From positions 1 to 53,683 of the IMG/VR virus record IMGVR_UViG_3300021168_000039: a DNA stretch of 53,683 nucleotides, one strand, 5' to 3'. Of the stretch, positions 9,487 to 41,771 are shown piece by piece (the first letter of the stretch is position 1; each line of letters starts with the position of its first letter). The translations under genes were made by a program, and so were the position numbers. The notes below the pieces were generated by a model. It did not search any database. It worked only from the letters and a program-made list of their open reading frames with translations, and had not been told where the DNA came from. The stretch is from a virus.

Positions 9487-9622
9487 CTAGCGCCCTGCGG
9501 CAGCTGCCATAACCATCGGCTTTTCAGTCGCGGTTGGTTGTTACGTGTCCTTTTAACGAGGGCCACGTCATCTCGGGATGTCCACTGCTGTCTCGTAGTC
9601 GCAATCGAAACCTTTCAGGCCC
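9487..9622 (-). ncRNA. tmRNA coding piece (tRNA 5' half, PK1, tag reading frame)
   Basis: It begins at G1 (9622). The AAAGGTTTCGATTG segment occupies the place of the conserved GG(U/A)UUCGAC of tmRNA D-domains. PK1 uses 9572-9575 with 9557-9560 and 9564-9568 with 9543-9547. Resume codon GCG is at 9531-9529 with A at position -4. The tag reads Ala-Thr-Glu-Lys-Pro-Met-Val-Met-Ala-Ala-Ala-Ala-Gly-Arg, stop TAG 9489-9487. The other two frames give either no stop or a short unlikely peptide. Confidence 0.75.
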
Positions 9623-9627
9623 ATCAA

Positions 9628-9689
9628 AACGCTTCAGCGAGACCCGCTCTCCGGGTGTACGCCGGTAATGCCGTTATACCTGAAGCGTT
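9628..9689. repeat. 10-bp inverted repeat in the tmRNA intervening segment
   Basis: AACGCTTCAG (9628-9637) and CTGAAGCGTT (9680-9689) pair perfectly and start within a few bases of both mature ends (9622 and 9691). In the precursor this would extend the acceptor stem and present both processing sites to the tRNA-processing enzymes. Confidence 0.85.
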
Positions 9690-9690
9690 G

Positions 9691-9900
9691 TGGTGGACCT
9701 GCCGGTATCGAAACCGGGTCTTGCAACTCGTACCTCAGCTTCATACATCCATAACTTACGGGGCGTACGGCCCTACAGGGGAAGGGAGTTCATATCTGAG
9801 ATTTCATCTTTGCCTCACCTTAGTGCTCAGATTTCCACCAGGGCCGCTAAGCCCTCCCCCTGTAGAACCGCACGCCTCCACCATCGGCTTAACGTCGCCG
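9691..9900 (-). ncRNA. tmRNA acceptor piece (pseudoknot domain, T arm, CCA end)
   Basis: The 3' end is fixed by CCA at 9693-9691. Upstream lie a 9-bp stem (9773-9781 with 9857-9865), a pseudoknot inside it (9840-9844 with 9851-9855, crossed by 9820-9823 with 9847-9850), and a 7-bp stem (9794-9800 with 9826-9832). These are expected for the PK2-PK4 domain. The 5' end is not determined; it must lie after the stop at 9908 unless it overlaps the gene. Confidence 0.75.
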
Positions 9901-39061: not shown

Positions 39062-39090
39062 TTGACAGAGTAAAAATGACATGGTAGAAT
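39062..39090 (+). promoter_or_regulatory. Rightward sigma70 promoter
   Basis: TTGACA (39062-39067), 17-base spacer, TAGAAT (39085-39090). Start near 39097, about 60 bases before the GIY-YIG gene; it may also feed the tRNA cluster. The stretch 38877-39061 holds no gene. Confidence 0.8.
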
Positions 39091-39156
39091 TATCTTATAC
39101 CGATTTACGTGGGTGGAGGCCTCATACCTCTGCCCACCCCTTATGAGGAGGGAATA

Positions 39157-39492
39157 ATGAACATTACACCTAGAACAGAAAAGCAATGGAGAGCAGAAGA
39201 GGACAAGAAGAGAGCAAGAGACAAAGCACGTCGTAGCTTTAAAAGGATAGGCATTTTAATCACCTACTTTATTCAAGGAAGAACAACTGGCCTTATAAAG
39301 ATTGGGAAAACAGAAAACCTAAACGAACGCCTTGCCACTCTGCAAGTAGGAAGCCCCGATGTGTTACATATTGCCAAGACTCTGTCAGGGAATGTTGAAA
39401 AGACATATCACAAGCGCTTTGCGCACCTCAGGCAACACGGGGAATGGTTTTCTCCTGCACCAGAACTTATAGAGTTTATCAACAAGATGTAG
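39157..39492 (+). CDS. GIY-YIG family nuclease (T5orf172-like)
   Basis: 111 residues from the ATG at 39157 with GAGGAGGG upstream. ITYFIQGRTTGLIKIGKTEN, LNERLATLQVGSPDVLHI, EKTYHKRFAHLRQHGEWF: the layout of short GIY-YIG/MUG113 domains. A basic N-terminal helix may bind DNA. Likely a mobile or DNA-processing nuclease; a regulatory DNA-binding role is possible. Confidence 0.75.
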   Translation: MNITPRTEKQWRAEEDKKRARDKARRSFKRIGILITYFIQGRTTGLIKIGKTENLNERLATLQVGSPDVLHIAKTLSGNVEKTYHKRFAHLRQHGEWFSPAPELIEFINKM

Positions 39493-39878
39493 AATCGCAC
39501 CGGGGCTCCTCCTGCGTATCTCCTTTCGCAGTTTCCGAGTAGAGCCCCGGGAGAGCACCAAGTTTAAGCGCTCTGGTAGGGAAGGAAGGACTTGCAAAGC
39601 CTTTAACCTTCTCGCTGGAAAACCTCCGCAAGTTTTGCAACTACGGAATGCAGCGCTTAATTAGTTTGGGCCTGATTCTTTTCGAGAAGTGCAGTGACAA
39701 CCATCCTGCATGCCCAGCGTATTAATGCGCTGAGATTAAACCTCAGGGTTCCCAGGGGCCGATAATTTGGCTGGCCGAGGGATCTGAATGTTTGGCCAAA
39801 GCATTTCAGGTAGGCGCATTATAAAATTTGTTCTGTTGAGTCAGTAGCCACAGAGCCTGATATCACGAACGACGTGCC
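39493..39878 (+). ncRNA. Candidate structured non-coding RNA, gene-free
   Basis: No reading frame is credible. Pairing elements include CCGGGGCTC with GAGCCCCGG (about 39499 and 39542), TTAAGCGCT (39564-39572) with AGCGCTTAA (39652-39660), and CAGCG with CGCTG around TATTAATG. It ends in a good terminator (39879-39911), as an independent RNA would. It follows the GIY-YIG gene and precedes tRNA-Thr. No family recognised. Confidence 0.4.
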
Positions 39879-39911
39879 GGAGACCACGATACAAAAGTCT
39901 CCACCTTTTTT
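39879..39911 (+). terminator. Rho-independent terminator upstream of tRNA-Thr
   Basis: GGAGAC (39879-39884), 12-base loop, GTCTCC (39897-39902), then ACCTTTTTTT. The tRNA genes downstream therefore need read-through or their own promoter. Confidence 0.75.
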
Positions 39912-39915
39912 TCAT

Positions 39916-39991
39916 GCCCTTGTAGCTCAGTAGACAGAGCGCACCCTTTGTACGGTTGAGGCCGGTGGTTAAATCCCATCCAGGGGCTCCA
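39916..39991 (+). tRNA. tRNA-Thr (TGT), atypical
   Basis: 76 nt with CCA. Acceptor GCCCTTG/CAGGGGC pairs with one G-U. Anticodon loop TTTGTAC; its stem CACCC/GGTTG has one C-T mismatch. T loop TTAAATC lacks the invariant C56, and the D loop AGTAGACA lacks the GG pair. Could be weakly functional. Confidence 0.65.
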
Positions 39992-40210
39992 AAGATTCGG
40001 CCATGGGCGCTACGCGACCGTGAGGGCTTGATAAGCCCGTGCCGAGTAAAGACTCACCCCTCGTCCGAGGTGATGGTGAGGCTACGGAATTCGACGCCGT
40101 CTAAAGGCCGGTCGCGTGCCTGCTCCATACGTAGAGCTGAATGTGGCGACAATAGGGTCTTTAGGCATTTTCATTCCCTCTTCGAAGAAATGAAATATCC
40201 AAGTTTATGT
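39992..40210 (+). ncRNA. Candidate structured RNA inside the tRNA cluster
   Basis: No gene. ACGCGACC (40012-40019) pairs with GGTCGCGT (40110-40117), closing a domain with GTGAG/CTCAC (40020-40024, 40053-40057), the GGGCTT-GAT-AAGCCC hairpin (40024-40038), CCTC-GTCC-GAGG and ACGG/CCGT. TCGGC near 39997 can also pair with GCCGA near 40041, suggesting a pseudoknot. It is not a tRNA and no known ribozyme core was found. Confidence 0.45.
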
Positions 40211-40284
40211 GGGCTGTTCGTCTAGTGGGAGGACAGTAGCTTTGCAAGCTTCAAACGAGAGTTCAACTCTCTCACGGTCCACCA
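40211..40284 (+). tRNA. tRNA-Ala (TGC)
   Basis: 74 nt with CCA. Acceptor GGGCTGT/ACGGTCC (two wobbles), anticodon loop TTTGCAA, T arm GAGAG-TTCAACT-CTCTC. One T-T mismatch in the anticodon stem. Confidence 0.85.
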
Positions 40285-40289
40285 ATTTT

Positions 40290-40365
<76 letters not shown>

Positions 40366-40463
40366 AGTTCGCCCGTCAGTGCGTTGGTCACTTCGTGTGA
40401 CAACTGACCCGACGCCCAAGCGGCCCGTGAGGGGCTGAGGCAATAATTTTAGGAGCGCAGAAA

Positions 40464-40673
40464 ATGTACATACCAAATCCTCCCTACGGCACTTGTCCCA
40501 ACTGTGGACACTGCCCACACTGTGGGCGCAGTAATCCTCCATACGTTCAACCACATTTTGTTCCTTTCGTTCCTCAGCCGTACATCTATCCAACAACAAC
40601 GCCATGGGGAGGATACCCATACACGACGACTGGCGGAAGCGTTGGTCAAGCTATCGGTACCACATCAATTTAA
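40464..40673 (+). CDS. Small Pro/Tyr-rich Cys protein
   Basis: 69 residues, TAGGAGCGC before the ATG. GTCPNCGHCPHCGRSN is a cysteine-rich zinc knuckle; the rest is PPYVQPHFVPFVPQPYIYP-like and probably disordered. First gene of the late operon. Confidence 0.65.
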   Translation: MYIPNPPYGTCPNCGHCPHCGRSNPPYVQPHFVPFVPQPYIYPTTTPWGGYPYTTTGGSVGQAIGTTSI

Positions 40674-40994: not shown

Positions 40995-41036
40995 GCTTCA
41001 TACTTTTCATAAGTTAATACCCAGGAGTTAATACAA

Positions 41037-41066
41037 AGGCTCAGTCTTCGGACTGGGCCTTTTTTG
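41037..41066 (+). terminator. Rho-independent terminator
   Basis: GGCTCAGTC-TTCG-GACTGGGCC followed by TTTTTT: a stable stem with a UUCG tetraloop and U-tract. It separates the two small genes from the structural operon; no clear promoter is seen after it. Confidence 0.9.
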
Positions 41067-41483: not shown

Positions 41484-41771
41484 ATGAATGCAGAAACCGC
41501 AGTAAAGCAGGAAGTTGTGGAGGTTGCCGAGGAAGTCAAGGCGGAAGTTGTCAAGGCCACTCAGGAACTAGGAGCTGAAGAGAAGCTCGTTATTCGTGAG
41601 ATAGAGAACGAATATCTCAAAGCACAGATCGAAATCAATCGCCTGAGCCAAATCACTCAGAATGCTCAGAAGAGATTTACGGATACCGTAGAAAATCTCG
41701 TCAAGAAGTACGCAGTGTCCCCAGCAGAGTGGGTGTTCGATAATGTTTCACTCACATTCAAACGCAAGTAG
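41484..41771 (+). CDS. Small coiled-coil protein
   Basis: 95 residues, CAGGAGAACTCAG before the ATG, the same leader as the protease gene. Almost entirely helical (VAEEVKAEVVKATQELGAEE, LKAQIEINRLSQITQNAQKR) with a short C-terminal strand. Likely virion or packaging accessory; unknown. Confidence 0.65.
   Translation: MNAETAVKQEVVEVAEEVKAEVVKATQELGAEEKLVIREIENEYLKAQIEINRLSQITQNAQKRFTDTVENLVKKYAVSPAEWVFDNVSLTFKRK

Follow-up and report, generated by a model that had tools for sequence, protein, structure and literature searches.

What occupies the space between tRNA-Thr and tRNA-Ala in a phage tRNA island? The window, as we call the whole stretch of 53,683 nucleotides that was analyzed, is uncultivated phage DNA, and the initial annotation had placed in it an unclassified RNA between these two genes, with no tRNA shape, a placement that ARAGORN confirms (Table 1). 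The structured RNA is real, and no catalogued family matches it. Comparison of related sequences shows that its location is conserved, that its helices and the palindromes of two loops covary, and that it belongs to no known family. On the same grounds our best reading, to which we give a probability of about 0.6, is that it represents a new, small class of RNA that would form homo-oligomers.

Location and genome context

The RNA/tRNA island is flanked on one side by a polymerase gene that points leftward and on the other by a rightward block encoding SprT, a protein resembling ribosome recycling factor, and terminase, and this gene order is common to many relatives. The structured RNA abuts tRNAs on both sides, and the ends of the flanking tRNAs set its probable mature limits at 39992 to ~40210. 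No tRNA or tmRNA was detected by ARAGORN or Rfam at 39992-40210. Promoter-like sites similar to the strong one at the head of the island, also on the + strand, are present in 8 of the 11 related islands examined (L021, L022, L064, L107, L083, L046, L036, L074); none was found in L069 and L033, and the L005 island, which is cut short, has a weak site only.

A contig of 108,277 bases (L001) is 100% identical to the window over positions 32392-53683. When the window terminase was compared with 50,697 phage records, 88 of them matched, all with less than 60% identity. Two small genes near the island were also seen. A GIY-YIG-like (T5orf172/MUG113) gene at 39109-39492 (+), between the promoter-like site and the RNA island, has as its only match among the loci compared the window's own copy in L001 (tblastn, E 1e-4). 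The protein resembling ribosome recycling factor is encoded at 41484-41771 (+), between SprT and terminase; its match to PF01765 (E 2e-4) is under the cut-off, and it is kept in most relatives.

Table 1. Features of the tRNA island and of the structured RNA, in window coordinates.
Feature	Position	Strand	Remarks
Promoter-like site	39062-39090	+	TTGACA-17-TAGAAT, TG before second hexamer; 11/12 letters; head of RNA/tRNA island
tRNA-Thr(tgt)	39916-39991	+	Directly upstream of structured RNA; ARAGORN and Rfam
Structured RNA	39992 to ~40203	+	From homologues and models; probable ends
PA helix, 5' strand	39995-40001	+	Pairs with 40041-40047; 7/7 in window (one G-U); covaries in relatives
P0 (ACGCGACC/GGTCGCGT helix), 5' strand	40012-40020	+	Crosses PA; lineage-specific
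PA helix, 3' strand	40041-40047	+	Pairs with 39995-40001
Core	40050-40083	+	P2, AGACUCACC/GGUGAG(G)CU; P2b, 40059-40062/40067-40070; bulge UGAU, 40071-40074; model R1
P3 hairpin	40084-40100	+	4-bp stem, all 4 pairs covary; conserved 9-nt loop (AAUNCGAUG type)
P0, 3' strand	40109-40117	+	Also loop of small hairpin 40106-40108/40118-40120
P5 hairpin	40122-40137	+	GCUC-CAUACGUA-GAGC; palindrome UACGUA, 40128-40133; loop palindromic in 8/9 versions
Conserved GGGUCUUU	40155-40162	+	Could pair with AAAGACUC, 40048-40055, as alternative to P2
P6 hairpin	40164-40200	+	GG/CC; covarying stem 40167-40174/40190-40196; loop UCCC plus palindrome UCUUCGAAGA, 40179-40188; loop palindromic in every version
tRNA-Ala(tgc)	40211-40284	+	Directly downstream of structured RNA; ARAGORN and Rfam
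tRNA-Asn(gtt)	40290-40365	+	ARAGORN and Rfam
Terminator-like hairpin	41035-41062	+	12 bp plus T-run; probable transcript end

Relatives and searches for known families

Relatives were gathered by terminase, polymerase and SprT searches. Of 82 sources searched with a model of the core built from five sequences (R1), nine matched below E 1e-11. All nine belong to the window's family; they comprise the five used to build R1, their copies L001, L020 and L021, and the close L019. R1 then matched three of ten newly fetched loci (L105, L106 and L107; 60.7 bits, E 1e-12). The three show no differences in the 600 bases compared, represent a sixth lineage from outside the building set, and carry the element in the same slot between tRNAs. 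A model of the 3' domain built from ten sequences (R2) gave matches below E 0.01 in 16 of the 81 sources searched, namely its ten building sequences and six copies; L064 scored only E 0.009, although it is among the ten. On 14 whole records, R2 gave one strong match each in four (G001, G002, G004, G016), the rest being weak (E of at least 0.1). From the R1 and R2 matches we count ten distinct versions with the 3' domain (window, L002, L005, L014, L017, L019, L022, L064, L083 and L107), seven of which bear the 5' core, so that the 3' domain is the more widely kept part. These versions occur in one clade of uncultivated phages and always lie in the same island. By our delimitation the RNA measures ~210 nt (212) in the window and 153-497 nt in the relatives. 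In fifteen further relatives, whose loci were selected by SprT, R1 and R2 gave nothing convincing, and most other loci searched are without both core and 3' domain.

The Rfam library used holds 4227 families. At the gathering thresholds none of them matches 39992-40210. At E<=10 the structured RNA is likewise unmatched: besides the tRNAs, the surrounding region 39490-40480 yields two snoRNA matches, which are implausible, and a single microRNA match, all three far under their cut-offs. At E<=1 the structured RNA of the relatives is matched by none of GOLLD, ROOL and OLE, whose models we take to be members of the library. The loci of 14 relatives contain tRNAs and group I introns (L061, 14728-14945, +; L108, 1212-1429, -), and no other catalogued RNA was detected in them. 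Pattern scans covered viral contigs and genome contigs. Ten of the 15 stretches found in one scan of the viral contigs lie on contigs of the known family; the other five were unconfirmed by R1, and none of 19 stretches on genome contigs was clearly confirmed. The best of the latter, L141 (20.2 bits, E 0.017), was judged a chance match, as were L132 (12.1 bits, E 1.8) and L090, which falls inside an apparent coding sequence. BLAST of the RNA alone against the 50,697 phage records returned chance words only, and in a sequence search that gave 419 records the 20 matches listed all fell on tRNAs. Searches of an open-access literature library showed no description of the structured RNA. The earlier suggestion that the locus may hold a new class is therefore supported, since the homologues collected covary and no Rfam family matches.

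Helices of the 5' region and core

The predicted structure is well supported by sequence comparison, in which PA, P2b, P3, P5, and P6 covary. The initial annotation had described a fold of about 120 nt closed by the ACGCGACC/GGTCGCGT helix (P0). A domain of 121 nt is indeed more stable than most shuffled sequences (MFE -49.3 kcal/mol, z -2.30, 6/200 shuffles as good), but the real element is longer, reaching ~40200, and the stability of the whole 219-nt stretch is not unusual (z -1.25). Stability alone therefore proves little.

P0 exists as an exact inverted repeat (9/9), and its 9 bp were equalled in the window by 3 of 300 shuffles. In L107, which shares a 17-nt identity with the window at 40105-40121, 6 bp are possible (65/300 shuffles), and over all ten versions the helix is at the level of chance (sum 45, shuffled mean 44.6). 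As there is no excess over the ten versions and little support outside the window, P0 was rejected as a family-wide closing helix. The conserved 5' helix is instead PA, in which 6 or 7 of 7 pairs are formed in nine versions; its summed longest helix of 69 compares with a mean of 45.3 and a maximum of 53 in 500 shuffles. The PA pairs were read by hand, and in the window and in L083 the helix is individually non-significant by strict Watson-Crick runs. PA crosses P0, which bears out the crossing pair proposed at first, and the window RNA would thus be pseudoknotted if both helices form.

Within the core, P2 is nearly invariant and P2b covaries in the five-sequence alignment. In this alignment 97.4% of 77 cells are paired and both partners have changed in 7 of 16 pairs, which none of 500 shuffles equalled, and slid versions pair at most 47%. 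The pairing AAAGAC/GUCUUU offered by the conserved GGGUCUUU tract is nearly invariant; it would be possible in the core-bearing versions, though weaker in L017 and L019, where the sequence is GGGUUUUC. A possible complementarity between GGGUCUUU and 23S rRNA was considered and dropped. In L005 (1251-1289), an extra GGTGAGACT-hairpin-ATAAAGACTCACC lies just before and into the core and could offer an alternative fold by pairing with the strand of the core itself.

Palindromic loops of the 3' domain and their possible role

The P6 hairpin has 88.0% of its cells paired and 10 cells changed on both sides, and none of 500 shuffles was as good, although one slid version is still 64% paired; when the pairs altered on both sides are counted, 30 of 500 shuffles did as well. 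In all ten versions the loop holds a palindrome right after its C-rich start, with central tetramers of five kinds (GUAC, UCGA, GGCC, GCGC, CAUG), GUAC being common to six of the ten. Palindromes in all ten versions were never seen in 20,000 shuffles; with one sequence per kind, the counts were 0/20,000 for a fixed centre and 7/20,000 with the centre left free. The palindrome of 8 in L017 is shortened to 6 in its near twin L019.

P5 behaves alike. Its loop contains UACGUA, AAUAUU, GAUAUC, AUGCAU, ACAUGU, CUGAUGCAUCAG, CUAG, or UAUA in eight of nine versions, and no palindrome in L014. The summed palindrome length was matched by 0 of 20,000 shuffles; palindromes of at least 6 nt occur in six versions (six or more such loops in 4/20,000 shuffles), and eight or more loops with a palindrome of at least 4 nt arose in 26/20,000. 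The control loops, those of P3 and of the inner hairpin of PA, showed no palindrome excess. Predicted loop-loop duplexes are mostly stronger than those of most shuffles, those of L002 P5, L014 P5, L014 P6 and L022 P6 only moderately so, and that of L005 P5, with a 4-mer palindrome in a 13-nt loop, is no better than shuffles (182/300). These counts carry several qualifications. Stems and loops were delimited by eye; MAFFT left P5 unaligned when it aligned the P5-P6 stretch, so the P5 pairs were read by hand, and in the window the P5 stem is just 4 bp. The palindrome idea arose from the same sequences on which it was tested, although P5 was examined after P6, and the evidence all comes from ten related sequences of one clade, so that there are few changes, and these are only partly independent.

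In a cryo-EM study of 2025 on OLE, ROOL and GOLLD, loops that alternate between different palindromes were read as a sign of intermolecular symmetric kissing loops, on the reasoning that neighboring bases of a single chain cannot pair with each other, and the structures show those contacts: L9.3 of OLE switches between palindromic tetranucleotides, and L21a of GOLLD between GC and CG (PMC12286853). By analogy, the argument of that study (PMC12286853) applies twice in the structured RNA, in P5 and in P6. A noncoding RNA of ~210 nt would be made from the + strand as part of the tRNA operon and probably set free when tRNA-Thr and tRNA-Ala are trimmed. It would fold into a 5' stem-loop (PA), the core (P2, P2b, P3) and, as its 3' domain, the hairpins P5 and P6. 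As the P5 and P6 loops are self-complementary, identical loops on two molecules could kiss, and two different two-fold contacts per molecule could, on geometric grounds, either produce a symmetric dimer or close into a dihedral ring. Homo-oligomerization is the outcome we somewhat favor; physical self-assembly and its stoichiometry, like the ends of the transcript and a role like that of ROOL and GOLLD, are what we infer from the comparison.

The loops could also owe their symmetry to short stems extending into them, rather than to intermolecular pairing, in a monomeric RNA with, for instance, a protein-binding or regulatory function. RNAs of such size need not multimerize, as raiA RNA is a monomer (PMC12286853), and the P5 palindrome of L017 can partly pair within its hairpin, as can those of P6 in the window, L005, L107, and L017, where a part could form an intramolecular stem of 2-3 bp. 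We consider a monomer unlikely all the same, as the central bases cannot pair in-strand and yet are self-complementary in 10/10 P6 and 8/9 P5 loops, by several different sequences, and as the P6 loops of L002, L014, L022 and L064 keep 4-nt palindromes that their flanking A residues cannot extend. Palindromes are also typical of protein-binding dyads, and the region divides the leftward polymerase gene from rightward genes, as might befit a divergent intergenic stretch, upstream of the terminase genes, that holds dyads bound by a dimeric DNA-binding protein or forms a structure used in replication or packaging. Against such a DNA-level element, which appears quite improbable, both palindromes vary from phage to phage, a variation that a single protein would not accept, each lies in the loop between covarying stem strands, and the region belongs to a tRNA operon headed by a + strand promoter-like site; a weak further sign is the excess of G-U cells (8) over A-C cells (2) on the + strand.

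That the hairpins are a processing spacer, setting the trimming of tRNAs in the operon and functionless after release, is in keeping with the tRNAs that abut the RNA on both sides, with AGTTT after the 3' end in 14 of 58 distinct tRNA contexts, and with the AAGUUU-type sequence that begins the RNA in most relatives. Such a spacer is very unlikely, however, since spacing would not call for a conserved P3 loop, for the GGGUCUUU tract or for two palindromes that covary, L083 retains the 3' domain in an island where ARAGORN finds no tRNA, and other relatives (e.g., L006) have tRNAs without the structured RNA. Least probable of all is a self-cleaving ribozyme, as the initial annotation had also proposed: the RNA is compact and, should PA and P0 form together, its window version has a pseudoknot, but no Rfam ribozyme family matches at E<=10, the alignments are without sign of an invariant cleavage site, and the proposal thus found no support.

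An oligomerizing RNA finds its nearest parallels in the RNAs of the cryo-EM study. GOLLD, like the structured RNA, is phage-encoded and close to tRNAs, and it is a homo-oligomer with symmetric kissing loops, one covarying as a self-complementary dinucleotide, an assembly that the palindromic covarying loops described here may also mediate; ROOL is a phage and prophage RNA often near tRNA islands, with kissing-loop contacts of its own; and L9.3 of OLE, which forms a dimer, is the closest precedent for the P6 loop (PMC12286853). The comparison with GOLLD and ROOL drawn at the outset is thus apt, the place being of the same kind and the palindromic-loop signature of self-assembly the same. The differences are as clear: many GOLLD members exceed 800 nt, a length that the structured RNA reaches neither in the window (212 nt) nor in the relatives (153-497 nt), and GOLLD has other helices; OLE has protein partners; and none of GOLLD, ROOL and OLE matches in Rfam. 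ROOL, moreover, forms an octameric cage and is far larger than the structured RNA, and OLE is to our knowledge not a phage tRNA-island RNA. Among viral RNAs, the HIV-1 dimer initiation site, whose loop holds a 6-nt palindrome flanked by purines, and the phi29 packaging RNA dimerize or multimerize through loops; their sequence and genome context are unrelated to those of the structured RNA, as far as a comparison of homology through Rfam goes.

ROOL and GOLLD are phage RNAs near tRNA islands that build RNA-only cages, and their functions are themselves unknown (PMC12286853), so a role can only be inferred by analogy; that of the structured RNA is probably akin to theirs. A more tentative and rather doubtful extension is that it joins ROOL and GOLLD as a third kind of phage tRNA-island RNA, of much smaller size, whose two independent self-complementary loops act as two-fold contacts closing an RNA-only dihedral ring or cage. 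A short RNA unrelated to these two, at a similar place and with their palindromic-loop signature, would suggest repeated evolution of self-assembling RNA in phages and would provide a system of ~200 nt in which the contacts can be mutated one at a time. Palindromic covariation may also flag quaternary RNA contacts from sequence alone.

Several other elements were seen in the window and its relatives. Upstream of tRNA-Thr (~39820-39909, +), a conserved hairpin with a varying stem and the conserved loop CCACGATACAAAA or CCACGATACTA is also present in L005, L006, L022 and L083. Another hairpin (39503-39550, +) has a changing stem and an internal CTCCTTT that is anti-Shine-Dalgarno-like, with hairpins of this type at a comparable place in L005, L036, L046 and L074. 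Downstream of tRNA-Asn, an element at 40363-40454 (+) without an Rfam match at E<=10 is 82-88% identical in L009 and L083 and partial in L064 and L071, and it resembles an H-type pseudoknot (in L009: GTCAGT, GCGTTGG, hairpin, ACTGAC, CCAACGC). A tRNA in L053 (6258-6342, -) was called Pyl, with anticodon CTA, and is possibly a suppressor. Elsewhere in the window, at 9493-9750 (-), a circularly permuted tmRNA missed by ARAGORN matches Rfam RF04321 with 66.6 bits (cut-off 47); the term circularly permuted tmRNA also occurs in a methylophage paper (PMC9004378).
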